A stretch of 64,000 nt of DNA from an uncultured Armatimonadota bacterium (GTDB lineage: Bacteria; Armatimonadota; Fimbriimonadia; Fimbriimonadales; Fimbriimonadaceae): positions 1 through 64,000 of the forward strand of contig CAILEM010000040.1 in assembly GCA_903833215.1 (NCBI GenBank). Direction: 5' to 3'. Position numbers and translations under genes: made by a program. This document shows, one piece after another, positions 44,186 through 61,239 of the stretch. Within the stretch, counting starts at the first letter, position 1, and every line of letters begins with the position of its first letter. Under the pieces are notes generated by a model, which searched no databases, was not told where the DNA came from, and saw nothing but the letters and a program-made list of their open reading frames with translations.

Positions 44186-44273
44186 GGAGAGATGGTCGAG
44201 TGGTCTATGGCGGCGGTCTTGAAAACCGCTGGGCAGCAATGTCCCAGGAGTTCGAATCTCCTTCTCTCCTCCA
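44186..44273 (+). tRNA. tRNA-Ser (anticodon UGA)
   Basis: Complete 88-base class II tRNA with encoded CCA. The acceptor stem GGAGAGA pairs with TCTCTCC (44263-44269). The anticodon stem GCGGT/ACCGC holds the loop CTTGAAA (anticodon TGA), and a long variable arm follows. The T arm is AGGAG-TTCGAAT-CTCCT. The discriminator base is T (44270), where bacterial tRNA-Ser usually has G. Its 3' part is duplicated at 59975-60034 and in part at 51794-51812, marking it as an integration site. Confidence 0.95.
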
Positions 44274-45954: not shown

Positions 45955-45960
45955 AACGTC

Positions 45961-46279: not shown

Positions 46280-46292
46280 AGCCAAAATTACT

Positions 46293-46334: not shown

Positions 46335-46423
46335 GTTGCGTCTGGGGCAAGCCCAACGTTGATCAAGTTGAACTCATTTATGCGGGAATTCCACCATACT
46401 AGGTGCAATCAGCTTGAATTCAC

Positions 46424-48388
46424 ATGGGCCACGAGCGTCACGTAACCGAAAATCCCTTCCGCATCCTCAACGTCGGTTCGCAGACGACTCAACGAGAACT
46501 GGCGCGTTTGGCAGCCTCTCACGCCATATCATCACGGGTCGGTCTTGTCGAATCTTCGCCATTCGACAAGGAATTTGGCCCATACGATCTTCAGGACTTG
46601 GTTTCCCACGTTCGGTCGATCTCGAACGACCCAAAGAGGAGGACCTTCTTTCGGTTTTTTTGGCCGCTTTCCGACACGGGGGCTAATCTTCTGAAGGACG
46701 GCGGACATATTGCGCCTAATTCAATACCGAAGTTCGAAGTCGATCACCTTCTGTTCCTCTCGGATTGGTTCGACTTTCTTGCCTCAGAATCAGTGGCGAG
46801 CGCAAAGGAAGCTCTTGCGTCGTGGACTCGTCTTCATGCGGACTACACTGACAGTGAAGCAGTGATCAAAGTGTCCGCTTCAATCAAAACGAAAAACCCA
46901 AACTATAACCTTAACGCCAGCTACTCGATTCTTGGCATTAAATTGTCCACCGCCATCAAAGATGATGACGATCTTGATTATTGCGATGCGTTCCCGATCT
47001 GGGATGAAGTGTCACCAGAGATCGCGGACTACCTTGTAACACGAATTACCCAGGCAGCCGACGAAAAATGGAACGACGGAATGTTTGTTGAGACATTAGC
47101 CCTGATGACCATGGCCGTGAACTCAAGGAATCTACGGATCACACCAGCTTCTCTCAACAGGATCGTTGAATCAGGAACCCGAAGAATGCGCCAAGTCGAA
47201 TCAATGCGGGACAGCATGTCAGACTTGAACATCGGCTCATCGCTTGAAGCCCCCGAAGTAGTCACGGAGTTGTTTCGCTTGTCTGAAGTACTCGGGCCTC
47301 ATCATCCTGTTGCTCGACTTTGGCAAGATGTAGTCCTGGACTGGAATACAAATCTCGCCTACAAAGTGAGAGAACTTGCCCTGAGTCTTAGCGATCAGCG
47401 TAAGTATGTAGAGGCAAAAAAGCTCATTGCTAAGGCCCTTTCGCTTGAAATCGCTTGGAACGCCAGAGAAGGGCTCGAAGAAGACAACGCTTCTTTGGAA
47501 GTTCTCATCGCTAATGACATTTACAGAGAGATTTTGCCTATTGCAAGTGCGCCGTCACTTTATACCTTCAATGGTATCGGCCAGATGCTTTATCAAACGT
47601 CACGGTTCCCAGGTGATCCAACCAAGCACTTCGCTATTCTGTTTCTCACAATTGCTTACATACCGATCATTCCCATCGAACGGTATCTGGTGACCTCTTC
47701 TGGACGGAACTCTTGGACCTTTCATGGAAAGACACCTTGGACAAAGTGGATGAAGGGCCACCTAGCAGGTGTGATTGGTTTGATCCTAATATCTGCGATC
47801 CTTGGCCTCGTAGGTTCCCCTCAATCTAGTCAACCTCTTCAAGCTTCACAAGAGACAAATTCGAGCAATGGAGAAGGTAACCCCACTTCGTCTGTCGAGA
47901 ACTCCGCTCAATCCAATATTTCTCTGTCACCGTCCGAACAGGCCAGCGCGGAAGCAAAGCATCAATCCGCTGTTGCCAAATCCGACAGTGAACCTGTCGC
48001 AGGGGCAAGTGGAGGCAATTCTTCGACTGTGATAAGCGAGGGAAGGGATGACGGAGGTAAAGCCGACAAGCGGAAGCTTCAAGAAACGAAATTGGCGTCG
48101 ATTGGCGCTGAACTCGATAATCTGAAATCGGAGATTAAAAGCCAAACTACTGCCCTAGATTCTGAGCAAGCACAACTAGCAGAAGTCAGGAAGTCTATTG
48201 ATGATTCATCCCCAAATACTGCAAACGAGGATGAAGTCAGCGCCTACAACGCGTTGGTTGATCGTTATAAAGCTGACAGACTTGTGTTCAACGATCATGT
48301 CACCGAATTCAATGGGAAGATTGCAAAGCAAAAAAAGCTAGTAGCTCGCTATAACGACTTGGTTCACCAGATTAATGAGGATAAGTGA
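46424..48388 (+). CDS. J-domain-like membrane co-chaperone of a mobile Hsp70 operon
   Basis: A 654-residue protein. The N-terminus (NPFRILNVGSQTTQRELARLA, later FGPYDLQDLVSHVRSISNDPKRRTFFRFFWPL) resembles the J-like domain of Hsp70-linked proteins in other bacteria but lacks an HPD motif. A helical middle (90-400) is followed by hydrophobic patches: 404-420 (FAILFLTIAYIPIIPI) and a clear membrane helix near 435-455 (LAGVIGLILISAILGLV). A Ser-rich stretch then leads to a C-terminal coiled coil (about 540-650). It overlaps the GrpE-like gene by 14 bases, with the Hsp70 next. I infer that it recruits Hsp70 to the membrane. Homology is by motif memory only. Confidence 0.7.
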   Translation: MGHERHVTENPFRILNVGSQTTQRELARLAASHAISSRVGLVESSPFDKEFGPYDLQDLVSHVRSISNDPKRRTFFRFFWPLSDTGANLLKDGGHIAPNSIPKFEVDHLLFLSDWFDFLASESVASAKEALASWTRLHADYTDSEAVIKVSASIKTKNPNYNLNASYSILGIKLSTAIKDDDDLDYCDAFPIWDEVSPEIADYLVTRITQAADEKWNDGMFVETLALMTMAVNSRNLRITPASLNRIVESGTRRMRQVESMRDSMSDLNIGSSLEAPEVVTELFRLSEVLGPHHPVARLWQDVVLDWNTNLAYKVRELALSLSDQRKYVEAKKLIAKALSLEIAWNAREGLEEDNASLEVLIANDIYREILPIASAPSLYTFNGIGQMLYQTSRFPGDPTKHFAILFLTIAYIPIIPIERYLVTSSGRNSWTFHGKTPWTKWMKGHLAGVIGLILISAILGLVGSPQSSQPLQASQETNSSNGEGNPTSSVENSAQSNISLSPSEQASAEAKHQSAVAKSDSEPVAGASGGNSSTVISEGRDDGGKADKRKLQETKLASIGAELDNLKSEIKSQTTALDSEQAQLAEVRKSIDDSSPNTANEDEVSAYNALVDRYKADRLVFNDHVTEFNGKIAKQKKLVARYNDLVHQINEDK

Positions 48389-48800
48389 AGTGAACTGCGA
48401 AGACCAAGATCGGACAAAACCGGCTTCACCTGATGTTGAGGATATGGCCGTTGGCTCCGTTACCGCAAGCCATTTAGAATGTCAGTCTGAATGTCAAATC
48501 TCTCTTGACCAGGTTGCTGAATTGGCAGTGGACATTTGGCGGATCACTCTACGCGCTCAGAATGATGATTCGAGTCATCGCGTCCTTGCCGCTTGTGAAC
48601 GAGCTTCCGACAGATTGAGGAGCATTGGGTTCGAGGTTGTTAATCCTACAGGGCAATATTACGATTCAAATATGAGAGTTCGAGTGATTGATCACATTGG
48701 CGGAACGGAACCCTTCAAAATCATAGATTGTGTGAGTCCAGCCATTTACTTTAAGGGCGAGCTTATTCGAGAAGCGGACATTGTAACTCAAGGGGAATAG
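48375..48800 (+). CDS. GrpE-like nucleotide-exchange factor
   Basis: A 141-residue protein. The helical middle (SLDQVAELAVDIWRITLRA, ACERASDRLRSIGFEVVNP) is followed by a compact beta part (TGQYYDSNMRVRVIDHI and VSPAIYFKGELIREADIVT). The order recalls GrpE, in which a helix leads to a small beta domain ending with a return such as GY.ln.rvLRPA.V. It lies between the J-like and Hsp70 genes, overlapping the first by 14 bases and ending six bases before the second. Context strongly supports a nucleotide-exchange role; sequence support alone is modest. Confidence 0.6.
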   Translation: MRISEVNCEDQDRTKPASPDVEDMAVGSVTASHLECQSECQISLDQVAELAVDIWRITLRAQNDDSSHRVLAACERASDRLRSIGFEVVNPTGQYYDSNMRVRVIDHIGGTEPFKIIDCVSPAIYFKGELIREADIVTQGE

Positions 48801-48806
48801 AGTCAG

Positions 48807-51197
48807 ATGGGAAGAACGGTTGATTATGGGATCGATTTAGGCACCACAAACAGTGCCATAGCTAGGATGACCGCGAAGGGTGCTGAGGTCATTCAGGTCC
48901 AACGTCAGAACTATATTCCATCGGTTGTTGGAGTGGATAAGCGAGGTGCTGTAAAGGTCGGAACAACTGCCCAAAGTCCAGCATTTGAATCGGCGAGGAA
49001 TTTCAAGAGAGTGATAGGGAGCGATACGACGATTTGCTTGGAAGACGGCGAAGCTTGGTCACCCGAAATGCTCTCTGCCGAAGTCCTGAAAGCTTTGAAA
49101 GCAGCGGCAAAACTGAAGACCGATGACGACATAGTTGATGTTGTCATCACCGTTCCAGCAATGTTTAACCAGCCTCAGTGCGCCGCCACAAACGCAGCCG
49201 CCTCTCTTGCAGGTCTAAACGCCGTGGCCCTGTTGCAGGAGCCAATCGCGGCGGCGACTGCTTATTTGTCAGAGAATCCAGTCGAAGGCTATTATCTTGT
49301 CTACGATCTAGGTGGCGGGACATTTGACGTTTCACTTATTCGCCTTCGCTCTGGCGAAATGAATGTGATCGAACACGGCGGAGATAACTTCCTTGGTGGG
49401 ACTGATCTTGACCGAGCCATATTCGATTGGGTTCTTGATCAAATCGACAGAAAAGGAGGCGATACGAAGCAATTTCAGAAGGGACCAAACCGACAGGTCT
49501 TGGTTGCGCATTGTGAAGAAGCTCGTGTTTCCCTAAGTGAGCAAGATAATACGACGATCTATCTAGACGAATTTGAACTGCCTTTGTCTAAAATCGAACT
49601 AACCCAACAACAACTCTCTGATATTATCGAGCCATACGTTTCGCGAACGATTGAGATTGCGAGAGATCGCTTGAAAGCTGTTCCGAAGTCAGGTTCGGTA
49701 AAGGGAATCCTTCTTGTCGGAGGTCCAACTCAGACTCCATACATTCGGGCACGACTAAAGGCTGAATTACAGCTTCCTTTGAACCTGGATCAAGACCCAA
49801 TGACAGTTGTTGCGAGAGGAGCGGCAATTCATGCTAGCTCGATTCTAAGACCGACGACCGACGCGAAACCTTCTGTCGGAAGTCTACAAATCGAACTCTT
49901 CTACGATCCGATATCACCTGACCCAAGGACCGTTGTTGGCGGAAAGGTGACTAGCCCCGTACCCTTCACTGGAGAGGTTCGGCTTTCGAATTCCGCAGGT
50001 GACTGGGAGACAGGATGGAAGGCCCTAATCAGTGGAGCCTTCAGCGCCGAGGTCTTACTTGGACGGCAACAGGTTTCAGAATTCGCAATCCAGATAAGGG
50101 ACCTTCAAGGACGGTTTATCCCATGTGAACCGTCAAGCTTTAGCATACGGTCTGGGGTAAGAGCGGCTCAGCCAGTCGCTCCATATAGTTATGGCGTCGT
50201 ACTCGAAGGCGGCCAAGACATAGGGATGATCGTGATGCAAGGAACGCCACTTCCTGCAAGCGGTTCGGCCACATTCGCACTCTCGCGGACAATCATTGCA
50301 GGTTCTCCCGATAAAGCAACCATCTACTTCATAGAAGGGAATAGCAGCCACGCGGACGATAATGCGAAGGTTGGTCATTTGGACATCAAGGGCACCGATA
50401 TCCATCGCACACTGAAGGAAAACGAAAAGGTTGAAATTCGGATACGAATGGACGAGAGCCGTCTACTAAAAGGAAAAGTTTATATTCCAGTGCTCGATAA
50501 GGACTACGAAGTCCAGCTTAACGAACTGCTCGTGAATCCTGACCTAGCTGACCTTGACAAGTCAATTCGGGAAACAAAGACGATTGCATCTCAACTGGAA
50601 GACTACGTTACGGATGACGAGCAATCGCTGGTCATTAGAGTCAACCGTCAGACCGAACAACTTGAGGCTAAATTGGAGAACGCTCTAAAGGGCGACATAG
50701 AAGAAGCAGCGGCTATCCAACATCACTTGAGCGAGTCGAAGGCAAGCATCAGACCACTCCAGCAAAAATACGCTGTGACGATGAAGCACCAGAGAGCAAT
50801 CGCGAGGATTGAGGGTGCCGAAGCCCTTTGTCAACGGTTCAATGATTCATTGGGAACGGCCAAGTTACAGGACCTTCGCTCGGAGGCTGATCGCTCTTTG
50901 AGATTAGAGCAGGAAAAGGCACTTGATGGCATATATGATCGCGCTTTGGACGTGTTCTGGGAGCATTACGGGAAGACCAAGGAATGCTGGGAATATCAAA
51001 TTGTCGTTATGAAAGAGTGCGCTCATTCGGCGAGCGATTCCTTGAGTTACTTTGAGTTGGTCAGAAAGGCAGAGCAGTGTTTAGCTGAAAATGACTTTGC
51101 AGGCGTCAATGTCTGCCAGCGGCGATCATGGGAGCTAATCCCTAGTGAAGAACTTACTGAGCGAAGATTTTCGGACGCCTCCCTACGAAAGATGTGA
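48807..51197 (+). CDS. Divergent Hsp70 (DnaK-like) chaperone
   Basis: A 796-residue ATP-dependent chaperone, longer than DnaK (about 640). Nucleotide-binding motifs are intact: DYGIDLGTTNSAIA (6-19), VVITVPAMFNQPQ (112-124), the catalytic Glu in LLQEPIAAATAY (145), YDLGGGTFDV (166-175), and GILLVGGPTQTPYIR (300-314). The interdomain linker differs from the usual hydrophobic DVLLLDV. A beta-rich substrate domain follows (about 360-590), then a long helical tail (590-796) in place of the lid. It is the last gene of a three-gene operon in a genomic island. Confidence 0.92.
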   Translation: MGRTVDYGIDLGTTNSAIARMTAKGAEVIQVQRQNYIPSVVGVDKRGAVKVGTTAQSPAFESARNFKRVIGSDTTICLEDGEAWSPEMLSAEVLKALKAAAKLKTDDDIVDVVITVPAMFNQPQCAATNAAASLAGLNAVALLQEPIAAATAYLSENPVEGYYLVYDLGGGTFDVSLIRLRSGEMNVIEHGGDNFLGGTDLDRAIFDWVLDQIDRKGGDTKQFQKGPNRQVLVAHCEEARVSLSEQDNTTIYLDEFELPLSKIELTQQQLSDIIEPYVSRTIEIARDRLKAVPKSGSVKGILLVGGPTQTPYIRARLKAELQLPLNLDQDPMTVVARGAAIHASSILRPTTDAKPSVGSLQIELFYDPISPDPRTVVGGKVTSPVPFTGEVRLSNSAGDWETGWKALISGAFSAEVLLGRQQVSEFAIQIRDLQGRFIPCEPSSFSIRSGVRAAQPVAPYSYGVVLEGGQDIGMIVMQGTPLPASGSATFALSRTIIAGSPDKATIYFIEGNSSHADDNAKVGHLDIKGTDIHRTLKENEKVEIRIRMDESRLLKGKVYIPVLDKDYEVQLNELLVNPDLADLDKSIRETKTIASQLEDYVTDDEQSLVIRVNRQTEQLEAKLENALKGDIEEAAAIQHHLSESKASIRPLQQKYAVTMKHQRAIARIEGAEALCQRFNDSLGTAKLQDLRSEADRSLRLEQEKALDGIYDRALDVFWEHYGKTKECWEYQIVVMKECAHSASDSLSYFELVRKAEQCLAENDFAGVNVCQRRSWELIPSEELTERRFSDASLRKM

Positions 51198-51272
51198 AGT
51201 CATTCAACCGAGCAGGCTTCTTGTCGATGGCGAAACGCAGACGATTGGGAGTGGAATCGTGTCTACCTGATG

Positions 51273-51278
51273 TAAAAT
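51273..51278 (+). promoter_or_regulatory. -10 box of a leaderless promoter (106-aa gene)
   Basis: TAAAAT followed by five bases (AAGTC) and the ATG at 51284. Confidence 0.5.
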
Positions 51279-51283
51279 AAGTC

Positions 51284-51604
51284 ATGTACGGACTATCTGA
51301 ATCAGAAATGGATCGTTGCTGGGAAGCATGGGCCAAGGAACTTAACCCTAACTACCAGATGGACTGCTTTACGGCATTTGACTTTGTGAGGGTCACGCTT
51401 AATCGAGGGTTCGATAGTCATATGACCGCGCTTCCTGCCGAGATGATTCCCTTGGTTGCCGAAGCCAGATATGACCTATTCACCCCAGAACAAGGCCGAA
51501 TCTTTAATACCGCTCTCAAGCTCGAAGAGGACCGATTCGAAGCGCACTTCGGATCGTTGGCTTCAGAAAGACTGCGAGAGTTCGCATCGCGCCAACCTTT
51601 ATAG
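51284..51604 (+). CDS. Hypothetical protein, 106 aa
   Basis: A 106-residue acidic, mostly helical soluble protein (ESEMDRCWEAWAKELNPNYQ, TLNRGFDSHMTALPAEMIPLV, LKLEEDRFEAHFGSLASERL). No family is recognised. It has its own leaderless-type promoter, so it is probably not part of the Hsp70 operon, which ends 87 bases upstream. It is the last gene of the left island, directly before the direct repeat that carries tRNA fragments. Confidence 0.6.
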   Translation: MYGLSESEMDRCWEAWAKELNPNYQMDCFTAFDFVRVTLNRGFDSHMTALPAEMIPLVAEARYDLFTPEQGRIFNTALKLEEDRFEAHFGSLASERLREFASRQPL

Positions 51605-51630
51605 TGTTCGCTATGGTCTTCTGAGGACTG

Positions 51631-51812
51631 AAAATGTTGGAATTTATGTTGGGATTTGCACTCGTTTTTGTGCGCTCGTGTGCGCTCCCAACCCGTTTAT
51701 TTGGCCCGATTCTTGATCGCTTTCAACCCTCATTTGAACCTAAAATGCCTGAAGAACGAGGGAAGCGCTATACTGGGATTAGAGGCTGAAAGGGGTCTTG
51801 CAAACCGCTGGG
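51631..51812 (+). repeat. Direct repeat with tRNA-Ser fragment, middle copy (attachment-site remnant)
   Basis: The first 58 bases (51631-51688) match 59812-59869 at 56 positions. A diverged spacer sharing CATTTGAACCTA...TGCCT follows, then AGGCTGAAAGGGGTCTTG and the tRNA fragment at 51794-51812 (GGTCTTG-AAACCGCTGGG). In both copies the 58-base part reads NVGIYVGICTRFCA in one frame, reminiscent of an integrase C-terminal tail. The stretch 51605-51945 otherwise holds nothing I can call. Confidence 0.75.
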
Positions 51813-51945
51813 TCAATTTTGTACGCAGTAGCTCCCGAGAGCGAAGGAGGACTGTCCTCGCCGGTTCTAATAACGTCCGGAATCCAAAATAGCCTCGCCG
51901 AAGTTCGCAAGAGCGAAGGAGAGCCAAAGATTACGGAGAAAATTC

Positions 51946-52161
51946 ATGATCCAAAGATGTGGCGAATGGTGGATGGAATCGCGACCGATTGATGAATCAG
52001 ATCGTGAATTTGATCGTGCCTTCTGGCAAGCCCAATCTCCCGACGCGATCTTCCGTGCAGCTTGGGAGATGGTCGAACTGGCATCAAAGTTGAAGGGGAC
52101 CAATCCAGATGAACTCAGACTTCAAAGATCTGTTGTCGTTATTAAACCGATTCGGGGCTAG
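51946..52161 (+). CDS. Hypothetical protein, 71 aa, partner of nucleotidyltransferase
   Basis: A 71-residue protein whose second half (DREFDRAFWQAQSPDAIFRAAWEMVELASKLKG, then NPDELRLQRSVVVIKPIRG) matches, from memory, a small conserved family that precedes DUF6036-type nucleotidyltransferases. GGAG lies 10 bases before the ATG. An internal ATG (51973) could be the start. It overlaps the next gene by 53 bases, so the two are translationally linked and probably form a toxin-antitoxin-like pair. Confidence 0.7.
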   Translation: MIQRCGEWWMESRPIDESDREFDRAFWQAQSPDAIFRAAWEMVELASKLKGTNPDELRLQRSVVVIKPIRG

Positions 52162-52555
52162 ATACCTCATCGTTGGCGGTTACGCCGTAATGCTCTACAC
52201 TGAGCCGCGGTACACAAAGGACATAGGTGTATTCGTCGGTGTCTCTGACTCCCAGGTTGCAGCAATCGGAAACGCCTTTGCTGAGTTCGGCTTTCCAATG
52301 ACCGAAAAGCTTCTGGAGGAACTCAAACTTCCAAATCGAATGATTTCAATTGGTCATCCGCCATCACGTATTGATCTTTTGAACGAAATAACCGGAATCG
52401 AATTCGAAGATGCCTGGAGGCGCAGAAACGTCGTTGAGATAGATGGAGTCCAAGTGCCCTTCATTTCCCTTGAAGACCTTGCAATAGCTAAGCGCTCCAG
52501 CGGCCGGCCTCAAGACTTAATCGATCTCAAAAACATCGAGCCACTGCTCCCATAG
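52109..52555 (+). CDS. Nucleotidyltransferase-like protein (DUF6036/AbiEii-like), altered active site
   Basis: A 148-residue protein of the nucleotidyltransferase fold. The substrate loop is LIVGGYAVMLYTEP, and the acidic motif reads TKDIGVFVG. Relatives have DxD (TKDIDxFV), so the second metal-binding Asp is Gly here, a change one base could cause (GAT to GGT). Downstream are RIDLLNEITGIEFEDAW and LEDLAIAKRSSGRPQDLIDL, as in AbiEii/MenT-like toxins. It overlaps the 71-aa gene. It may be inactivated or act without catalysis. Confidence 0.8.
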   Translation: MNSDFKDLLSLLNRFGARYLIVGGYAVMLYTEPRYTKDIGVFVGVSDSQVAAIGNAFAEFGFPMTEKLLEELKLPNRMISIGHPPSRIDLLNEITGIEFEDAWRRRNVVEIDGVQVPFISLEDLAIAKRSSGRPQDLIDLKNIEPLLP

Positions 52556-52607
52556 GAGCTGCAAATCGAATTCGCGTAGGTGAGCCGAAGACGGCGTCGT
52601 ATAGATC

Positions 52608-52844
52608 ATGATTTCTCAACGCGTAATCGAAGGAACCGGGGAAGACATCGCGGAGTTTGTGCAGCGTCGCCCTCAAGAGCGATTCAAACTGGTTCTCCTA
52701 GAATCGCCATCGGACAGGGCTCCAAAGTGGGGAGGTCCTGACCCGGAGACCTGGAATGAAGTCATGGCTTTCATTCACTCGTACAAGGGCAAGCTCCCCG
52801 TTTTACCAATGAACGCGGCCTCGACTGAGTCACTGTACGACTGA
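52608..52844 (+). CDS. Antitoxin-like small protein, 78 aa (orphan)
   Basis: A 78-residue protein with GTGEDIAEFVQRRPQERFKLV and a tail KLPVLPMNAASTESLYD. This resembles small antitoxins that precede PIN toxins. No PIN gene follows directly; the next gene is the second vapB copy. It may be an orphan left by deletion. Function is inferred from pattern only. Confidence 0.55.
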   Translation: MISQRVIEGTGEDIAEFVQRRPQERFKLVLLESPSDRAPKWGGPDPETWNEVMAFIHSYKGKLPVLPMNAASTESLYD

Positions 52845-52989
52845 TGTCTTCATCTGCCTATTTTGCGGACCGCTAGAATGATCCTTGACAAAGTCCGCGA
52901 TTGAGAACATATTTCCCGGCCAGCCCTCCCCAATTTTCGCCCGATAATTGACGTTGGACGTCATAATTACATTCCAAGGAAGTAACTCC

Positions 52990-53271
52990 ATGAGCTTTGA
53001 ATTTCCCGCAAACGTTGAACGCGTGATTGAGCGGTACGCGCAGTCGGAGCACATTTCGCCGTCTGAAGCGGCTGTCAAGCTTGTTCAGGAGGCGCTTAAG
53101 GCCAAGAAGCCCAAAGTCGTCAAACGCGAGATCACCGAGGCAGACCTAGGAGCCCTTCGGCAGAATGTGCCAATCTTCGCTTTTCTAGAAAAACTTCCGG
53201 ATAACGTCATCGAAGGCATGGAGGCGGCAAGCAAGCATATCCGTGCAGAAAGGTTCGCGCCGCGTGGGTAA
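52990..53271 (+). CDS. VapB-like antitoxin, copy 2
   Basis: A 93-residue near copy of the antitoxin at 44366 (same length and start; conserved FPANVERVIERYAQSE, EITEADLGALRQNVPIFAFL, ending RAERFAPRG). AAGGAAG lies upstream. The frame is intact although its cognate toxin gene, overlapping its last bases, is broken. It may survive by neutralising the first VapC or by autoregulation. Confidence 0.8.
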   Translation: MSFEFPANVERVIERYAQSEHISPSEAAVKLVQEALKAKKPKVVKREITEADLGALRQNVPIFAFLEKLPDNVIEGMEAASKHIRAERFAPRG

Positions 53272-53430
53272 GGTCCTCATCGATACCAGCACGTTTTTTG
53301 ATATCCGAAATACACCAACAACGCTCAATCCCCGTCGGCCCAAGACACTACTCTCAAGCTAATGAAGTATTGGGCCACCACACAAAACTCCTGATCAGTG
53401 CCTTCGATGCGTTTGACCACCTGGCCAGCG
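53264..53430 (+). pseudogene. Decayed VapC toxin, copy 2
   Basis: Starts at a GTG overlapping the antitoxin stop and reads GKVLIDTSTFFDIRNTP like the intact VapC. Two frameshifts follow, and the matching part ends LLISAFDAFDHLASV. Similarity stops near 53430, where the convergent 149-aa gene ends. The remaining two thirds of the toxin gene is missing. Confidence 0.8.
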
Positions 53431-53447
53431 TGGATTTTCATTCTTCT

Positions 53448-53897
53448 TCATGGCTTCGCGATAACGTAGCCATCGGCTTGTGCCTGGCTCACTAGGCTCT
53501 CGAAGAGGTGAGCATCCATAAAGGGAGCCCACTGACCATATTTATTTATGGTCTTGCCGTTTGGCTTTTCTACCTTATGCCAATATGGCATCCAAAATGC
53601 GTCCTTTCGACCTTCGCGACAAAGGACGACTAGAAACGGATAGAAGATGACCTTTGATCCGTCACTGTCGTTCCACGATTCCAATTTCTTCGGGAGATAA
53701 ATTGCCTTGACCTCGGACTTCGTGGCACCGACACCTAATCCAAATGAATGTTCAAAGTGTAGGTTCGTCGGTCCATTGCAAGCATTGCACGACGGGCTCA
53801 TCCCACGAGCAACGTTGCACAATGCCTCAAACAACGCACCCGCTTTGGAGCCGTCTCCGCCGCAAGCACCACACTTATAGATTCGCTTCGTCGCCAT
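53448..53897 (-). CDS. Hypothetical zinc-ribbon protein, 149 aa
   Basis: A 149-residue soluble protein opening with YKCGACGGDG and, about 35 residues later, CNACNGPTNLHFEHSFG. The two CxxC knuckles probably bind one zinc as in DnaJ-type or rubredoxin-like ribbons. The rest is aromatic-rich (FYPFLVVLCREGRKDAFWMPYWH). AAGGTGG is 8 bases before the ATG. No family is recognised. Its 3' end abuts the vapC remnant. Confidence 0.65.
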   Translation of the reverse strand: MATKRIYKCGACGGDGSKAGALFEALCNVARGMSPSCNACNGPTNLHFEHSFGLGVGATKSEVKAIYLPKKLESWNDSDGSKVIFYPFLVVLCREGRKDAFWMPYWHKVEKPNGKTINKYGQWAPFMDAHLFESLVSQAQADGYVIAKP

Positions 53898-54020
53898 AGA
53901 TCCACCTTCGAGCCATCCATAAGCTACTCGACATTATTGTGAAGTAGGAAGTCGCCGCTCGCCACTCCTTCCAACAAGTGCGATTATTATTGCAAGGGTT
54001 CTGCTAGCGGGCTGGTCGAG

Positions 54021-54413
54021 ATGATCAGCTTGCCCTCATATCAAATTTTGGTGTGTCTGGCAGTGCTACCCAAAGCTCCTGTATTGATTTGGCACAACAA
54101 CGAACAGAATCAGCTCGGATGCGGTGAGACTCCGCGGGTTTCGAGTGACGCAGTCATCGGCACGATTTTTGTCGCACTCAACACACCTCCGCTGAACGGA
54201 ATCACGGAAACCCCGGGTGGCACGATCACCGTGCCGCAAGGATCATTCCAAGGTCAAATCATCGTTGTCAAGGATGAGGGCGGGAACGCATTGTCGGCAA
54301 ACATCATCGTGGCTGGCGCGGTGGACGGCGGGACGAACGTGGTGATCAATCAAGACTACGGCTCAGTTACCGTGTATTGGGATGCCACTTCCAACCAGTG
54401 GTTCACGATCTAA
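54021..54413 (+). pseudogene. Phage tail-fibre-like C-terminus, copy 2 (truncated)
   Basis: From about 54110 the sequence matches the fragment at 45138-45597, here in one uninterrupted frame: LNTPPLNGITETPGGTIT, QIIVVKDEGGNALSANIIVAG, ending YWDATSNQWFTI. The 5' part is degenerate and no long fibre gene precedes it. It overlaps the KTSC start (TAATG), as in copy 1. It is called a remnant because the N-terminal part is absent, though the short frame could still be translated. Confidence 0.6.
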
Positions 54414-54619
54414 TGGCTGATGCTGTCCAGCTTCGAAGCGCATGGATGTCCACGGCTGAGTACGATCCCGACTCCAAAGAACTTGAGATCGTCTTGGACG
54501 ACGGCAAGAGCTACACGTATTCGAATGTGCCCGCTCAGATTTATCAGGGATTGATTTCGGCGTCGTCGGCTGGCAAGTTCTTCCGCGCCAACATCCGAGA
54601 TCGATTCCCTGAAACCTAG
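54413..54619 (+). CDS. KTSC-domain protein, copy 2
   Basis: A 68-residue KTSC-domain protein (VQLRSAWMSTAEYDPDSKELEIVLDDGKSYTYSNVP, then YQGLISASSAGKFFRANIRD). The ATG overlaps the upstream stop. The second half is nearly identical to the fragment at 46180-46279, closer to that than to copy 1, so the fragment came from a relative of this copy. A terminator follows. Confidence 0.8.
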   Translation: MADAVQLRSAWMSTAEYDPDSKELEIVLDDGKSYTYSNVPAQIYQGLISASSAGKFFRANIRDRFPET

Positions 54620-54642
54620 AGATTCCCAGTTCAAACATAGTA

Positions 54643-54681
54643 AAGCCCGTCCTGCCGAAAGGTAGTGACGGGCTTCTTTTT
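54643..54681 (+). terminator. Intrinsic terminator after KTSC copy 2
   Basis: 9-bp stem AAGCCCGTC/GACGGGCTT with a 15-base loop, followed by CTTTTTG. Confidence 0.8.
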
Positions 54682-54814
54682 GCTCATTACTTCTGCGTCC
54701 AATCCGAACTAGCGAATGCTGATTTAGCAGGGCTTAGGGGTCAGTGACGGCTTCGTGAAACTGATGTTCCATGAGTGGGGATCAGACATGAAGTTTCGCC
54801 AGTCTCCCTTTGAG

Positions 54815-55720
54815 CTAGTCCTCAGATGTTGAACAAGAAGCGATGACGAATTCCATCAATTCTCCCGCTGCTTTCACACAGACGTTGATCAACTTGCTCA
54901 CCAATAGGCCGTCGATGACCAAGTACTCTCCTTCGACTGCGTGCTCGAACTCTTCCCAATTCTTACATTGCCCCAAGAACTGCTTGTCTACTTTGCCGCT
55001 TCTGTGAGCGATCAGGTGCCGAGTTTTCTCCACCTTCATTAGGTCGGGATTAAATTTGAACACGTTACAACCCTTATTGGAAAGTTGACTAAAGGCCTCC
55101 TTGATGCCACCCAAGCTCTGGAAATTCATCCTTTTGGCGTCTCGCAACAAATCTCCCGTGTGGTTGCTGAGATCGCCTTCATATTCCTCGATCTTGTAAA
55201 TACTTGGGTTTAAGTTCACCGCCGTCACCCATAAATCAGTAGCCAAACTCTCAAACGCCGCATATGAGTTCAATATCATGGTGTAAAGGACAGCTTCTAT
55301 TCCTGCCCGTATGCTGTCATCATCAGCGGTATTGGCAGAAAGATATTCGATCATCTCACTGCCTATCTTTGAGATTTCCTTGGCCGCGTGAGGCATTCCT
55401 TGCGCCAGTAGTTCAGCTTCCGCTTCACTCATTCGGAAGTGGTACTCGCTTGAAGATTTGACATCACATTTCGCTAAGAGGTCGCCATGTGGGACGCCAG
55501 AGGTCAATGGAATCCAGCCGACTGCCCTTCCTGAAAGTGTTGACCAATATGCCACATCCGCTACAAGGTAGGGCATAGCGGCAACGCGATTCATGTTGCG
55601 CAAGTATGATTCAACAATAGGTCGAAACTCTTCTATCGGAACCGCATCAACCGTGTCTTTGGGGAACGCGTCAAAGGACATGGCCTCGAAGAACTTGTAG
55701 CCGCGCGTATCGATATTCAT
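54815..55720 (-). CDS. HEPN-like domain protein, 301 aa
   Basis: A 301-residue, mainly helical soluble protein. A conserved-looking segment is YAAFESLATDLWVTAVNLNP, followed near the C-terminus by KTRHLIAHRSGKVD. The latter fits the R-x4-H motif of HEPN domains (RHLIAH). HEPN proteins are often RNases or helical partners in defence and toxin systems. The N-terminal 90 residues are unrecognised. It is monocistronic. The assignment rests on this motif and helix pattern. Confidence 0.6.
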   Translation of the reverse strand: MNIDTRGYKFFEAMSFDAFPKDTVDAVPIEEFRPIVESYLRNMNRVAAMPYLVADVAYWSTLSGRAVGWIPLTSGVPHGDLLAKCDVKSSSEYHFRMSEAEAELLAQGMPHAAKEISKIGSEMIEYLSANTADDDSIRAGIEAVLYTMILNSYAAFESLATDLWVTAVNLNPSIYKIEEYEGDLSNHTGDLLRDAKRMNFQSLGGIKEAFSQLSNKGCNVFKFNPDLMKVEKTRHLIAHRSGKVDKQFLGQCKNWEEFEHAVEGEYLVIDGLLVSKLINVCVKAAGELMEFVIASCSTSED

Positions 55721-55772
55721 TGTGTTAATAACACCGCGGTTGGTTCACGGCTCGATGCGTGACCAGTCCCGG

Positions 55773-57107
55773 CTAGTGCCCCCATTTATCGTCATATGCT
55801 TCATGAGCGGCCTTTTGAACTCCTGGATCAGCATCATTGAACATCTGCTTTAATGTCTTTTTTGCAACAGCGCCGCCAATAGAAGCCAAGCTTTGCGCGA
55901 CCGTTATTCGAACGGACTTGTTTTCGTCGTTGGTCATGGCGGTAAGCGTGTCAAGGTCCTCGCTGGAACCGAAACTCCCCAGAGCCCGAACGCCTGAAAT
56001 TCGGTTAACGGGTTCTTTGGAGTCACAATAGGACTTCATGAGCGGAAGATATGACTTCGCTTTGAGTTTTCCAAGACTCTCTAGAGCGGAATTAGCCACG
56101 CTGTCCGCTTTGTCATTAAGGAGGACAGCTACATTTTCGACGAGCGATTGACCGTCAGCCCTATCGCCAATCACACGACAGGCTAGGCATCGAACCATTC
56201 GATCTGGATTCCCAAGCAACTCGCGAGCAAATGTCAAGGTTGGTTTAGTTCCCGCCTCTTGAAGTCCAAGACCTAAGAATGCAAGCGTGTATACAAACGC
56301 CTTTTCATCCTCGTCCTTAGACTTTTGACCTCGCTTGAAGATTTTGTCAAACGAATTCCTCAGCATGTAGATGTGCTCATTGTCAGCCGAGCGGCATATT
56401 CCGTCAAAGGCAGTAAATACTCGAATGGCATTATTGGAGTCGGAAAGAGCAATGTCAAAAAAATCTTGGATCGACTGAGCGTCACGAAGCTCAGCTAACG
56501 TGTGTAGGACGTAGCAGTTACAAAGGGGGTCTTGAAGTGCTCGGCGTAGACAAGACCGTGACTTCTCGTTCTTTATCCACGCATCTTTGGGATGAGGATC
56601 AGCGTCCAACTGGTATTGTTCGCCTAAGGTCCTGTGCCACCCGACTCTACTGTCGATGAGTAGTGCTGCGAAAACTCTTTGATCACCGCATCCATGCAAC
56701 AGCGCTTTAAGGATTGGTGCTTCCAACTCTTCGTGAAAGACTCCTAGAATTACCATGCCGACGAGAGTCTGATAAGATGCGTGATCCTTGATTCCTTTGG
56801 AGTAGAAATCACTGGCATATGCATTGACTACGGGTGCAATAATTTGTGGTCCAAAGCTCTGTAATTCTTTAATTGCGTTAGCAGTCTTTTTGGGGTCTGC
56901 GGCAAAAATGAAGCGCGTAAGCTCTGCAATCCTTCGTGACGATGAATTTGCCTTTGCGAGTTTCGAATTCTGGGTAGCAGATTTTGTTTGCTCCGATCTA
57001 GTCGAAACAAGAGTGGAGTGCATTAAAGTCAACGAACTCCGTGGTGCAATTGAGCAGCCAAATAGTGCGGCTAGCGCCAAAATGATATGCATATTTGAAA
57101 AGTCCAT
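55773..57107 (-). CDS. Secreted HEAT-repeat protein
   Basis: About 444 residues from ATG 57107. The N-terminus MDFSNMHIILALAALFGC looks like a signal with a lipobox-like Cys. The body is an alpha solenoid of HEAT repeats, clearest at the C-terminus (VNRISGVRALGSFGSSEDL, SVRITVAQSLASIGGAVAKK, GVQKAAHEAYDDKWGH). Such proteins bind partners on the periplasmic side. The frame stays open to 57197, but the extra residues precede the signal. It reads in the same direction as the HEPN-like gene, 52 bases upstream. Confidence 0.75.
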   Translation of the reverse strand: MDFSNMHIILALAALFGCSIAPRSSLTLMHSTLVSTRSEQTKSATQNSKLAKANSSSRRIAELTRFIFAADPKKTANAIKELQSFGPQIIAPVVNAYASDFYSKGIKDHASYQTLVGMVILGVFHEELEAPILKALLHGCGDQRVFAALLIDSRVGWHRTLGEQYQLDADPHPKDAWIKNEKSRSCLRRALQDPLCNCYVLHTLAELRDAQSIQDFFDIALSDSNNAIRVFTAFDGICRSADNEHIYMLRNSFDKIFKRGQKSKDEDEKAFVYTLAFLGLGLQEAGTKPTLTFARELLGNPDRMVRCLACRVIGDRADGQSLVENVAVLLNDKADSVANSALESLGKLKAKSYLPLMKSYCDSKEPVNRISGVRALGSFGSSEDLDTLTAMTNDENKSVRITVAQSLASIGGAVAKKTLKQMFNDADPGVQKAAHEAYDDKWGH

Positions 57108-57264
57108 CGAAACAGTTGGACTGAGCCGACCGCATCTGAATTCAATATTATCACGGACAAGCCGCTGGCCGACGAAAATGACCCGATCCCGCGTCATCTA
57201 AATCTAGTGCGTAAAAAGACGTTCGATGCTTGCGTCATTTCTACACGCCTGATAAACCAACCCT

Positions 57265-57603
57265 CTATTGGCGTTCTCGTTTGAACTGGTCAACTATTTT
57301 TTGCGCGTCCGTTGCCGACCACCCATCTTGCATAGCCTTCTGTCTTACAATCTCTTCCTGCGAGTGGTTGTAGTCTGAACTGCCATTGACCGTATGTTCT
57401 TGCGGCGGGTTATTTTTCTCACTTTGGATGAAAGCATCGAGCTTCTTGCTCTGCGCGGATTCACCTGCCCCTAGCTCAGACGCCCTACCATCCTGTGATG
57501 TCGTGGCCGCGTCGTTCGCAGATGGGTTGCTACATCCGCAGAACACTACAAGCGCCATCAACACAAAGAAAACGCCACGGAACGATAATCCACTAACCTT
57601 CAT
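57265..57603 (-). CDS. Small lipoprotein, 112 aa
   Basis: About 112 residues. The start MKVSGLSFRGVFFVLMALVV ends at a Cys-rich lipobox (FCGCSN). The mature part is polar, Ser/Asp/Gln-rich and probably disordered, with a C-terminal helix (SATDAQKIVDQFKRE). GGGGGC upstream favours ATG 57603 over 57630. It lies upstream of the HEAT protein on the same strand and may be cotranscribed with it. Confidence 0.65.
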   Translation of the reverse strand: MKVSGLSFRGVFFVLMALVVFCGCSNPSANDAATTSQDGRASELGAGESAQSKKLDAFIQSEKNNPPQEHTVNGSSDYNHSQEEIVRQKAMQDGWSATDAQKIVDQFKRERQ

Positions 57604-57825
57604 TTTGCCCCCGCGAAGCCTCAGACCCAAAGTTCATTCGCTTTGTCGAGCGTAGCATAGTTCCCATGTTGCGACATGAATTTGCCGACACGACACTTGT
57701 GGTGACAGGCGTCAAAGTCTTGTGGCGCTGACCCCCTAAAAGGCGTCTGGGTGGCCGATTTCAACTGAGCAGCGGACAACTTGCATGTGGGATTTGGCTG
57801 TCCAACCCTACGCGTTGATTCGCGC
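57604..57825. other. Intergenic region
   Basis: Divergent spacer between the lipoprotein and the 201-aa membrane protein genes. It holds the promoter of the latter at its right end; nothing else is recognised. Confidence 0.3.
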
Positions 57826-57831
57826 TATTAT
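57826..57831 (+). promoter_or_regulatory. -10 box of a leaderless promoter (201-aa gene)
   Basis: TATTAT followed by six bases (TGAGAC) and the ATG at 57838. Confidence 0.6.
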
Positions 57832-57837
57832 TGAGAC

Positions 57838-58443
57838 ATGGCAACGTCCTATGTGGAGTGGCTGGAAGCCGTCAAGAATTCTTTGGCGACTACGCGGCCA
57901 GATGTTAACCCCAAACTCCTCGACCCCAATGAAACGTTTGCTGCCTTTTCGTCTGGGCAAGAATCTCTTGATTTTGCTGGTCAGGTGAAGCTCCCTTTAC
58001 TTTCTCAGCAAGCCGAACAATCTTCACGCAAACCATTGCCTAAGAAGCTGGCCGTACGCTTGGCGATTATCCTGGTTGTGGGCGCTCTAATAGTCTGGTT
58101 TGCAGTGGGCTACTTTAAGGCACCCGAAGAGAAGGCGAAAGACATTGCCAAAAAGGTGATGAATGACTACTGTGCTGGAGGGATCAATGAGTTTGAAAAG
58201 AGTAAGTGGTGGAACGGAGAGACTCAGGAGCAGGAAGATCGGCACCCTATGCCTGTCCACACGAGGAGCCCTGTAATTGAATCGTCCCGCTTTAATGCAC
58301 AGGGTACAAAAGGCGCACACTATGAAGTGGATGGATTGGTTGAAGCGCTAAAGAACAATGGTGAGTGGGGCACAACCCACTTCTGGGTTGTGTTCGACCA
58401 AAACCTTAATTTCAGATACTTGGGTATTGACACGGAGCATTAG
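57838..58443 (+). CDS. Single-pass membrane protein, 201 aa
   Basis: A 201-residue protein. A cytoplasmic N-terminal part (1-73) with an opening amphipathic segment (SYVEWLEAVKNSLAT) is followed by one membrane helix (about 74-92, LAIILVVGALIVWFAVGYF). The 110-residue outer domain is small and alpha/beta (THFWVVFDQNLNFRYLGIDTE at the end). The outer part could be a ligand- or partner-binding domain. No family is recognised. The promoter is of the leaderless type. Confidence 0.65.
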   Translation: MATSYVEWLEAVKNSLATTRPDVNPKLLDPNETFAAFSSGQESLDFAGQVKLPLLSQQAEQSSRKPLPKKLAVRLAIILVVGALIVWFAVGYFKAPEEKAKDIAKKVMNDYCAGGINEFEKSKWWNGETQEQEDRHPMPVHTRSPVIESSRFNAQGTKGAHYEVDGLVEALKNNGEWGTTHFWVVFDQNLNFRYLGIDTEH

Positions 58444-58575
58444 AGTGGCAAAATCAGAACGGCGGATCACCAATGTCAACCTGTGCAACTCGTGTTAGGA
58501 AACTTCGAATAAAGTTGGTCATTCGCCATGATTCGTTCTTAGGATCGCCGATCTGAGCCTTGGCCTCTTACTCCT

Positions 58576-58846
58576 TTGAAGCTGGAAGCCATCCCACAGC
58601 GGTTTCGGCAACCAATTCCATGGTTGGATCACTTGACCATCGGAGAACTTGCCCGAATCGGCAAGTTCTATCGTCAACCATTGAAGCCAACGGAACTGCC
58701 GAACGGATCGCTCATCTTCTTTGCTCAAATTACTTCCATCATCCACTCCAGGACGTTACCGCGCTGAAATCGTCTACCCGCGAATCGTGACCTTGGGCGA
58801 TGAAGCCAAGAATCAAGATTTGAAGACTCTCGGCATCGCACTGTAA
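58576..58846 (+). pseudogene. Possible frameshifted small gene
   Basis: A frame starting at TTG 58576 (MKLEAIPQRFRQPIPWLDHL, then IGELARIGKFYRQPLKP, PNGSLIFFAQITSIIH) loses sense after 58746. Dropping the T at 58747 restores a coding-like continuation PGRYRAEIVYPRIVTLGDEA, then KNQDLKTLGIAL and a stop. The joined product of about 90 residues looks coherent but matches nothing I know. The rest of 58444-58957 shows no supportable gene. Confidence 0.35.
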
Positions 58847-58957
58847 CGAAACGACTAGGTGACTGGCCCCTTGCGCCGTCGTCGGGTCGTATGGGACTGC
58901 TGTGTCTAAGTGTTCTATCGAAGTATCGAAAGTTTTTTGGTGCCAGATTTCACGGCC

Positions 58958-58963
58958 TATCAT
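58958..58963 (+). promoter_or_regulatory. -10 box of a leaderless promoter (270-aa membrane gene)
   Basis: TATCAT with six bases (CCATAT) before the ATG at 58970. It supports that start over GTG 58910. Confidence 0.5.
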
Positions 58964-58969
58964 CCATAT

Positions 58970-59782
58970 ATGCCTAACAACATTTCAAAAGTATCCGTGA
59001 TCGTCGGGACCGCTTGCTTTTGCGCGGGAGTATTGCTCGGACTGTATCTGCCGACTCCGACTGCGTTTCTGCGGTTGCCGCACGGCCCTGACTCATGGAC
59101 GCCTGTCTTAAACGGCTTGCAACTTGTAATCATCTCTGTCCCAACCCTGCTTATTGCATGGCTATCGTTTAGGTTTGCTCAGACCGTTGCTCTTCGCAAC
59201 TCACTTAACAGCAAGCAGAGGGAAATCTACAAAAAATGGCTTAACGACGCTTCCAAGATTCGAATGCAATGTGTATTTGCGTCCAGCACCCATGATTCCT
59301 TCCGCACGCAATATCGGAGCCACAAAAAGGGGGACGCTGTTGACGCAATGGAAAAGACAAGAGCCGAGTCGATAGAACAATCAATTGCCTTATTGGAAGC
59401 CCTTCGGGACCTTTTTGCCTACAACAAGAAGCTCAGTGTTTTTTGCTCGCAAGAATCAGTCGATGCCGCCGATACTGGTTTTGCGGCATTAGGTGAACTC
59501 GTGATAGTTTATTGCTCTGAATTCCAGATCGATGATGCCCTTTTCGCCGACCAATGTGTACGGCGGAAGAAAGTTGGCTTTAAGGTGGACGCGATAATTG
59601 AAGTCTTCAGCGGAATCGCGAAAAAGGAACTCGGTGTTCCGCGTCTTTCGAAAGAAATTGCCTGGTTCACGAAACGAGAAGAGAAGGTGAAACCCTTCAA
59701 TGAGGCAGTCTTTCTTGCGGCTGTCGCACTTTGTCTGCCAGACACACCGACTGAGACGGTATGTTCCTCTCTACCGAAGTAG
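58970..59782 (+). CDS. Membrane protein with cytoplasmic helical domain, 270 aa
   Basis: About 270 residues. Two membrane helices (about 8-28, VIVGTACFCAGVLLGLYL; and 52-75, LVIISVPTLLIAWLSFRFA) precede a long, charged, helical domain (NSLNSKQREIYKKWLNDASKI, EKTRAESIEQSIALLEALRDLF, EIAWFTKREEKVK). No family is recognised. ATG 58970 is chosen for its -10 spacing. It is the last gene before the right-hand attachment remnant. Confidence 0.65.
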   Translation: MPNNISKVSVIVGTACFCAGVLLGLYLPTPTAFLRLPHGPDSWTPVLNGLQLVIISVPTLLIAWLSFRFAQTVALRNSLNSKQREIYKKWLNDASKIRMQCVFASSTHDSFRTQYRSHKKGDAVDAMEKTRAESIEQSIALLEALRDLFAYNKKLSVFCSQESVDAADTGFAALGELVIVYCSEFQIDDALFADQCVRRKKVGFKVDAIIEVFSGIAKKELGVPRLSKEIAWFTKREEKVKPFNEAVFLAAVALCLPDTPTETVCSSLPK

Positions 59783-59811
59783 GGCAGACTAAGCAAGTGT
59801 GAGTGGCCCGA

Positions 59812-60034
59812 AAAATGTTGGAATCTATGTTGGGATTTGCACTCGTTTTTGTGCGCTCGAGTGCGCTCCAAACCGCTTTCAGGACTCCACGCTTGGGCTG
59901 GTTTTTAGCCCATTTTGAACCTATAGTGCCTAAAAATCGCCTTCTGTAGTAGATTGACCGCCAAGGCTGAAAGGGGTCTTGAAAACCGCTGGGCAGTAAT
60001 GTCTCAGGAGTCTGGATCTCCTTCTCTTCCCCCA
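59812..60034 (+). repeat. Direct repeat and tRNA-Ser 3' remnant (right island boundary)
   Basis: Bases 59812-59869 repeat 51631-51688 almost exactly. Then AGGCTGAAAGGGGTCTTG leads into 59975-60034, which aligns with 44215-44273, the 3' 59 bases of tRNA-Ser, over its whole length with a few substitutions and one extra base. The anticodon TGA, variable-arm and CCA positions are recognisable, but T-loop and acceptor changes make it non-functional. It is the expected second attachment site of an element integrated at the tRNA 3' end. Confidence 0.85.
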
Positions 60035-60082
60035 AAAGTAAAGGTGATTTCCGCATATGTCAACGCCTCGGCCCGGAGCTGG

Positions 60083-61189
60083 TTACGGAGCGTCGAAGTA
60101 CAAAGTCGCATTATCTTTCCCGCGCAAAGCAGATTCGACAGATTCTCCGCGGTGCAGGCGCAATGCCAATGTTGGCCTGCTGACGTGACAACGTGGATCT
60201 TTTGACCATGCCTGAATCGACTTTGTCTCGCCGTGGCCAGTGAATAGAATGGGTTTGCCGTCATGTAGCGGTGGCTTGCAAAGCGCATCCTGTGGTGAAA
60301 CTCCCTTCTTGAGGCGAGCGCTGACGCCACGTGCGGTCAATTTGCACCGTTCATCCCCTGCCCATTGGCGGAGGCTCTTTGCATCTTCGAATGCTGGAAC
60401 CGTGCCCTTGCAACCATAATTTCGGGACACTTCTCGGACCTTGGTGAGGGCTGCCTCAAGTGGAATTCCCATCTGTACTCGCCGACGAAGGCTCGTGTGG
60501 GAAATGACGCAACGCGGATCCCGGGACCAATCGAGAAGCGACTTCCATTCGCCAAACGCTTCTCGAAGCATGAACGGAGGCGGCATCTCGCTCATAAGGG
60601 CGACCTCCACCGAAATTCCACGCTCTAGCCGTTGCTTTAGAACTCGAAACGGCACTTCACATCGACCGTCTTGCGTCCACTGGCGAAGCGTCATTTCCAC
60701 GCCGAACCCTTCATACCGATTGGCTCTCGTGTAATGAGATCCCATTGCATCTTCGGCTTGTGCCCCGTTGGAAAGTCTCATGAGTAGGATTGCGCGCTTA
60801 ACCTCGCATCGCGGATCGGTTAGCCATGCTGAAATAGGCTTAGTTTCCCCAAATGCGCGGATGAGCATGTCGCATCGTGATGGCCTTTTCTTCATCGCCT
60901 CTTCCGGTGCCATTCCGGTTCGAAGGCGCTTGATGAAAACCCGTATGGAAACCTCGCATCGACGATCAACGCTCCACGCTGCGACCGCCTTCAACTCGCC
61001 GAACGCCATGACGAGTGTGGTTGACGGGATGGAACTCTGGGTTTTTGATAAATTTGGCGGGCGGCTTAGCGCTCCTTCAAGTGTCTCGCCAGCAGCCAGT
61101 CGCCTTCGAAGCCCACCTTCACTGACGATGCATCTTGGATCGACAGTCCATGCATGCAAACACTTCGACTCTCCGAATGCCTGATGCAT
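60083..61189 (-). CDS. Seven-repeat protein with phage-type DNA-binding-like modules
   Basis: About 368 residues, almost all consisting of seven tandem units of about 45-55 residues. Each follows (A/G)F/HGE.K.(L/I)..W..D.RC.V.....L..RL..G.....A(L/M). Examples are AFGESKCLHAWTVDPRCIVS, AFGETKPISAWLTDPRCEVK and GHGETKSIQAWSKDPRCHVS. This recalls the small helical repeat beside HNH homing endonucleases of phages (W....gis..tL..Rl..Gw..eeAL), thought to contact DNA. No nuclease domain is attached. TATAAT lies at 61234-61239 on this strand. A GTG at 61225 is an alternative start. Confidence 0.75.
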   Translation of the reverse strand: MHQAFGESKCLHAWTVDPRCIVSEGGLRRRLAAGETLEGALSRPPNLSKTQSSIPSTTLVMAFGELKAVAAWSVDRRCEVSIRVFIKRLRTGMAPEEAMKKRPSRCDMLIRAFGETKPISAWLTDPRCEVKRAILLMRLSNGAQAEDAMGSHYTRANRYEGFGVEMTLRQWTQDGRCEVPFRVLKQRLERGISVEVALMSEMPPPFMLREAFGEWKSLLDWSRDPRCVISHTSLRRRVQMGIPLEAALTKVREVSRNYGCKGTVPAFEDAKSLRQWAGDERCKLTARGVSARLKKGVSPQDALCKPPLHDGKPILFTGHGETKSIQAWSKDPRCHVSRPTLALRLHRGESVESALRGKDNATLYFDAP

Positions 61190-61233
61190 TTGTCGGTTCT
61201 CAACTTTGCTCACTGTGCAGCCCACCAGTAGCA

Positions 61234-61239
61234 ATTATA
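61234..61239 (-). promoter_or_regulatory. -10 box upstream of the seven-repeat gene
   Basis: TATAAT on the minus strand. It lies 8 bases before a possible GTG start (61225) and 44 bases before the ATG at 61189. Confidence 0.5.

Follow-up and report, generated by a model that had tools for sequence, protein, structure and literature searches.

What could a protein do that consists of seven tandem copies of a small phage-type module and has no catalytic domain? This question is raised by a gene at 60083..61234 on the minus strand of the window, by which we mean the whole 64,000-nucleotide stretch of DNA analysed here; its host belongs to the family Fimbriimonadaceae of the little-known phylum Armatimonadota. 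The original prediction described the product as a modular DNA- or RNA-binding array. That description is partly supported, by the predicted helix-turn-helix (HTH) fold, the basic recognition helix and the diversified specificity modules; the structural role it suggested for the cysteines is not supported. We consider the array to be a nuclease-free, modular, sequence-specific DNA-binding protein with a probability of roughly 0.6.

Seven units and no second domain

Read from a TTG codon, the gene encodes 383 amino acids. Because a TATAAT box sits directly before this TTG, the possible alternative ATG at 61187-61189 (minus strand), giving 368 amino acids, is favoured and may be the true start. 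The units, all on the minus strand, lie at 61061..61186 (unit 1), 60887..61012 (unit 2), 60737..60862 (unit 3), 60590..60715 (unit 4), 60440..60565 (unit 5), 60275..60400 (unit 6) and 60119..60244 (unit 7). Each is about 42 residues long, and linkers of 7-16 residues separate them, so that the motif W..D.RC begins at residues 29, 87, 137, 186, 236, 291 and 343 of the 383-aa protein, with spacings of 58, 50, 49, 50, 55 and 52 residues. W13, D16, R18, C19, R29, G33 and A39 (numbering of alignment A1) are shared by all seven units, whereas the F-GE-K motif is common but not invariant (FGVEM in unit 4, FEDAK in unit 6 and HGETK in unit 7). The seven consecutive units are thus as predicted, and searches of the 383-aa protein against Pfam, PHROGs and NCBIfam found no second domain, HNH or other. 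The repeat pattern is not due to chance, as an HMM of the units also picks up relatives, often with several units, in 14 further genomes of the family.

The Cys of the RC motif had been proposed to be structural. We rejected this role, as a metal or disulfide site, because each unit has a single Cys and the residue is replaceable: it is carried by 137 of 168 units, and in the remaining ones it is replaced by A, S, F, V or G.

The units are predicted to fold as separate HTH domains

AlphaFold2 modelled a pair of window units, supplied with 53 homologous pairs, at a pLDDT of 93.2. The predicted unit comprises a beta-hairpin of two short strands, a helix, a turn over DPRCxVS, a second helix and a short third helix, with the helices at 11-15, 24-32 and 37-40; the predicted HTH turn is longer than that of a classical HTH. 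The prediction for the whole protein repeats this fold in each of the seven units, whose placement relative to one another has little confidence (pTM 0.33). In the model the seven units are therefore beads on a string without a fixed arrangement, not a solenoid. A solenoid without a basic face would have spoken against the original prediction; the predicted structure has instead separate HTH domains, in which helix 2 is basic. By likeness to HTH proteins, contact with DNA would be made through this helix.

The best match among predicted viral structures (BFVD) was an HNH endonuclease (E 5e-4), followed by individually non-significant matches to intron-associated, GIY-YIG and 'HTH homing' endonucleases and to PVL ORF-50-like proteins. 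Foldseek and VIA-align searches of the PDB gave no meaningful match to the unit fold, an outcome to be expected of two small, flexibly linked domains. A profile of the units against PDB sequences likewise returned nothing significant.

The unit is shared with phage HNH proteins

The window units match the C-terminal part of phrog_3377 'HNH endonuclease' in PHROGs (E 1.5e-14) over positions 102-190 of 196, past its HNH part, and a second match, phrog_3190 (E 3.5e-14), is a family of unknown function. The same domain follows HNH-like domains in phage proteins, in line with the original prediction, which placed similar single units next to HNH homing nucleases in phages; homologues thus do occur with nucleases. 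An HNH-like domain with one or two units is found in Rhodococcus phage Peregrin gp61, Bacillus phage 035JT004, a Klebsiella phage-type plasmid, a Nostoc plasmid and one of the family's own genomes (G032). The phage HNH homing-endonuclease-like proteins of PHROG 3377, 374 and 2081 share with the unit the pattern GETK-L--W----C-VS--TL--RL--GW--E-AL and the same predicted fold; in them the HNH-like domain is followed, on its C-terminal side, by one or two copies, whereas the window protein has seven units and zero HNH domains. The genes of PHROG 2081 HNH proteins lie within group I introns that interrupt phage DNA polymerase genes (PMC11878797).

Neither Pfam nor NCBIfam contains a model for the array units. 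NUMODs and the NUMOD-like module of I-HmuI are small DNA-binding modules appended to nucleases (PMC1564403), and the array units resemble NUMOD1-4 and the I-HmuI module in being small and, in relatives, attached to nucleases. However, the array protein had no match to Pfam NUMOD1, 3 and 4 at E up to 10, and the only NUMOD4-like stretch (E 0.06) lies upstream in a fused protein, L014; long nuclease-free NUMOD arrays are not described in the open-access papers found. The PVL ORF-50-like family (PF07768), itself of unknown function, is linked to the units through structural neighbours of the units in BFVD and through a match to array L022 (E 2.4e-5, 25.1 bits) that falls below the cut-off of 27, while the window protein is unmatched.

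Other contexts of the unit were also seen. In viral contigs L074, L075, L080 and L085-L088, it stands immediately after an HNH domain of another, classical-looking type (DHxxRxRLxNxxxNLR...NANNR), so that the unit has had partners among more than one kind of HNH domain. Viral contig L071 (1894-3159) encodes an unusual modular protein with an XRE-type HTH, then three or four Cys-rich repeats (HGTxxGYGxGCRCxxCxxA) and then one unit. In two Streptomyces sequences (L090, L098) the unit is fused behind GntR-type winged helices, which suggests its use as a regulator module.

Arrays are scattered and the window array appears old

Units are present in 15 of 85 genomes and 8 of 32 genera of the family Fimbriimonadaceae, in 21 of 291 genomes of the phylum Armatimonadota, and in 5 of 343 Planctomycetota and 1 of 346 Actinomycetota genomes, the last two counts including the seed genomes. 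The original prediction had called for a survey of repeat number and hypervariable positions among homologues; unit number ranges from 1 to 11 in nature, and the variable positions are exposed residues of helix 2, as described below. Array-only proteins include one of 757 aa with 11 units (G033), three in G036 of 550, 502 and 479 aa with 9, 8 and 8 units, one of 448 aa with 8 units (G055), two of about 283 aa with 5 units each (G026), one of 286 aa with 5 units on a Streptomyces plasmid and one of 334 aa with 6 units in another Streptomyces (L153). Most proteins in phage records carry just one or two units, placed after an HNH-like domain, and large phage contigs L158 and L160 have 4-5 units. 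Only itself was found when relatives of the Streptomyces plasmid array were sought in plasmids, phages and viral contigs.

The genome of the window also encodes a 1-unit gene (contig C29) and a 3-unit gene with a C-terminal extension (contig C89). The latter (G000:C89, L002 1447-2247; L111; also in G018, G020 and G022) has a C-terminal domain with 'ELWVY...ETDTIKNYELT..G' and adjoins pheT. Its neighbours are kept in four genomes, which indicates vertical inheritance; with its conserved recognition helices, this gene is a domesticated member of the group.

No orthologue of the window array was found in the 19 congeneric genomes. Its units are as different from one another as from those of other arrays (identity 0.42 in both comparisons), whereas the Streptomyces array has 0.68 within and 0.40 between; from this comparison of identities, the window array is old and long retained.

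The HNH motif is degenerate in HNH-bearing proteins with three or more units

We scored 36 HNH-like domains of unit-bearing proteins for the D/E-R ... N motif on an HMM alignment. The motif is intact in 20 of 24 domains from proteins with one or two units, versus 0 of 12 from proteins with three or more (Fisher p 1.5e-6, with related sequences counted separately); one of the four non-intact domains in the former class, L147, is a fragment of L136. At the protein level the counts are 18 of 21 and 0 of 6, the six motif-less proteins being a planctomycete clade and the Armatimonadota protein L114 (G188), so that the count is dominated by this one clade, in which the layout HTH, degenerate HNH and units is repeated. 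In L114, at least eight units follow a degenerate HNH domain, and this protein may be an intermediate between a nuclease-linked unit and a nuclease-free array. The HNH domain of the five-unit phage protein L158 is degenerate by eye. The HNH motif was thus lost at least two or three times, together with unit multiplication, and its loss would presumably inactivate the enzyme.

The planctomycete proteins (L092, L095, L134-L136 and L139; 430-690 aa) form a family in which one kind of block recurs, made up of a classical HTH, a degenerate HNH-like domain and one or two units. None of their HNH motifs is retained, and they are possibly large multi-module DNA-binding proteins.

The missing catalytic domain, the degenerate HNH domains of relatives with three or more units and the lack of an orthologue in the 19 other genomes of the genus would also fit a decaying homing-endonuclease remnant that is functionless at present. 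However, the 383 codons contain no stop or frameshift. Identity between the window units at codon positions 1, 2 and 3 is 51, 57 and 32%, and the core residues of the seven units have a pN/pS of 0.18 with saturated synonymous sites, indicating that all of the window units have been kept by selection. As the units are also as old as those of other arrays, a dead remnant is very improbable.

Exposed residues of helix 2 show the pattern expected of specificity residues

Helix 2 occupies columns 21-29 of a 38-column alignment, and we compared exposed positions 21, 22, 25, 26, 29 and 30 with 13 other exposed positions; these were chosen from the predicted secondary structure, before the orthologue test and after the entropy table had been seen. 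Over 168 units, positions 25, 26, 29 and 30 are 35-40% Lys/Arg and 4-15% Asp/Glu. The mean charge is +0.20 at the exposed helix-2 positions versus 0.00 at the other exposed ones (permutation p 0.022), and +0.33 versus -0.04 in the window protein.

These positions are also the most variable among units of one array, with an identity of 0.11, compared with 0.24 at other exposed and 0.74 at core positions. In the window, the recognition sextets of all seven units differ, reading EGRRAA, IRIKRT, RALMSN, FRKQER, HTRRQM, ARSAKK and RPALHR in units 1 to 7, respectively. Between orthologous units the pattern is reversed: in the 3-unit gene from four genomes, agreement is 0.69 at recognition versus 0.52 at other exposed positions, whereas different units of this gene agree at only 0.04 and 0.19 (exact permutation p 0.005 for the contrast).

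Two independent recent duplications show rapid change at the same sites. The pN/pS values at recognition, other exposed and core positions are 1.47, 0.83 and 0.23 in the Streptomyces plasmid array and 1.18, 0.52 and 0.21 in units 4-6 of G055, compared with 0.24, 0.42 and 0.13 between orthologues (pooled permutation p 0.009 for the two duplications and 0.002 for their contrast with orthologues). In the window array itself, recognition (0.91) and other exposed (0.84) positions are both saturated. The statistics on specificity residues thus come from relatives, namely four orthologous genomes and two recent duplications, and pairs within an array are non-independent.

Three further comparisons were made. 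Colinear paralogous arrays in G026 and G036 have lower conservation at recognition (0.23) than at other exposed positions (0.33), as expected with changed targets, a difference that is non-significant alone. The contrast failed in the Nocardia/Streptomyces 4-unit genes (p 0.99) when two within-genome paralogues were taken as orthologues. The cross-species pair L094-L155 gave 0.61 versus 0.49, in the expected direction; we do not count it as support, since either pair could be the orthologous one.

Taken together, exposed helix-2 residues that vary among units, are conserved in orthologues and evolve fast after duplication form, at the sequence level, the signature of specificity residues, as expected if helix 2 reads a target and a newly duplicated unit then acquires a different one. 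The units behave as specificity modules that have diversified separately.

The same data bear on the possibility that the array binds nucleic acid non-specifically, or binds RNA, as a nucleoid-type or RNA-coating protein in which a weak basic module was multiplied to raise avidity. The basic character of the arrays (pI 9.5-10.4), the variation in unit number from 3 to 11, the flexible linkers and the fact that the unit is known only from nucleic-acid enzymes are all compatible with this. However, recognition residues that are conserved in orthologues, divergent between units and subject to raised nonsynonymous change after duplication would be needless without specificity, and the arrays are present or absent in accessory regions, with no core conservation. 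We therefore regard non-specific or RNA binding as unlikely.

The array gene lies beside a tRNA-Ser integration hotspot

The accessory region is bounded on the left by tRNA-Ser(UGA) at 44186..44273 (plus strand). A 63-bp copy (89%) of the 3' part of this tRNA at 59975..60037 (plus strand) forms a right attachment-like repeat, and the stop codon of the array gene lies 46 bp outside it, in agreement with the original placement next to an island boundary. Another copy of the tRNA 3' part, 19-30 bp long, is found at 51783-51812, and a 68-bp repeat precedes each of the two right copies. Several 100-300-bp repeats recur 8.2-8.8 kb apart within 44186-60037, the repeats of 68-300 bp being 75-93% identical. 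On this sequence pattern, 44186-60037 is made up of two related elements in tandem at a tRNA-Ser(UGA) integration hotspot. The hotspot carries PIN, Hsp70-like and nucleotidyltransferase genes, and the congeneric genome G022 has its own insertion of about 10.5 kb at the corresponding tRNA (L148 7402-17997).

In another congeneric genome (G018), the orthologue of the core gene at 64272-65558 comes about 1.2 kb after tRNA-Ser. This short spacing indicates that 44.3-64.2 kb is accessory and that the array sits between the attachment repeat and the core gene. For neither flanking gene, at 58910 or at 61360, was a homologue present in the 19 other genomes of the genus.

Such a position, 46 bp from an island edge, together with the arrays on Streptomyces plasmids and large phage contigs, would suit a transcriptional repressor of the array's own or a neighbouring integrated element, of the lysogeny or plasmid-control type, rather than a defence against incoming elements. 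However, no repeated operator-like sequence was found upstream of the array gene, and the stretch that separates the att repeat from the next core gene is an accessory segment in its own right. An element repressor is thus possible, though we hold it to be doubtful.

Defence-like neighbours occur beside three other arrays: SIR2-like and T5orf172/ResIII genes in G012, AAA in G021 and HD-CE in G026, a raw count over three loci. Beside the G012 array, L110 8948-12441 contains a SIR2-like gene and a T5orf172 and ResIII gene resembling type IIG restriction enzymes, and is possibly a defence locus. PADLOC matched no anti-phage defence model in the three arrays searched.

These neighbours and the accessory position beside a tRNA hotspot, together with the many small HTH-like domains that bind proteins, would also accommodate units that bind a phage or host protein, the array acting as a scaffold, decoy or antirepressor. 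The basic face of helix 2 points to DNA instead, as does the linkage of the unit to several HNH-like kinds and to GntR-type winged helices, and the neighbourhood comparison found no conserved partner gene beside the arrays. A protein-binding array is, in our view, quite improbable.

A possible mode of action

As a nuclease-free, sequence-specific DNA binder, the array could have arisen and could work as follows. The unit would be a beta-hairpin plus HTH module, of the same type as the specificity module at the C-terminus of phage HNH-type homing nucleases, and in the array lineage this module would have been multiplied and the nuclease domain lost. The linkers of 7-16 residues would let the units occupy successive major grooves. 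Helix 2 would read bases through its exposed positions 1, 2, 5, 6, 9 and 10, with the conserved K, R and R residues holding the backbone or the fold. Since the recognition residues differ in all seven units, the whole array would recognise one long site, or several. For an array protein without a catalytic domain, occupancy is the most likely mode, by which it might, through repression or blocking, keep a mobile element or phage from being transcribed, replicated or integrated. We infer DNA rather than RNA as the target, as well as the number of bases per unit, the joint binding of several units and the blocking mode.

A more far-reaching and tentative proposal, which we rate as rather unlikely in full, is that tandem HTH units are natural modular DNA readers derived from homing-nuclease modules, with a decipherable and engineerable code, and are re-targeted by duplication and diversifying selection. 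Each unit would then read a short base stretch via helix-2 residues 1, 2, 5 and 6. The named specificity positions make the idea of DNA reading directly testable.

Comparison with other modular binders

We found no earlier description of nuclease-free arrays of this unit in the open-access literature searched, and a prior description may still exist. If the units read DNA independently, the arrays would be a bacterial counterpart of TALE and zinc-finger arrays, built from a 42-residue HTH module. They would also illustrate a route from a selfish nuclease to a nuclease-free regulator or defence protein, through motif loss and multiplication of the specificity module, and would assign a function to a domain that in phages is found very frequently behind HNH-type proteins and that has no Pfam entry reaching the window protein.

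TALE and TALE-like arrays (BurrH, MOrTL), for which a screen for repeats of other lengths has been published (PMC5472282), resemble the array only in the way they would work. In them, tandem near-identical units differ mainly at a few specificity positions, and these positions diversify first in recent duplicates; here, the latter is seen in two relatives, while the window gene is saturated. TALE repeats of 33-35 residues form one continuous superhelix, whereas the array has separate 42-residue HTH units on flexible linkers. There is no sequence or fold similarity between them (the Foldseek PDB search was without a match).

The arrays can likewise be compared, in their manner of working, with eukaryotic Myb R1R2R3 proteins and zinc-finger arrays, in which small HTH or finger domains are joined by short linkers. 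Myb repeats are about 50 residues long and contain conserved Trp residues. No homology to either group was found, and the present arrays are distinguished by their 4-11 units, their bacterial origin and the beta-hairpin that precedes each HTH.
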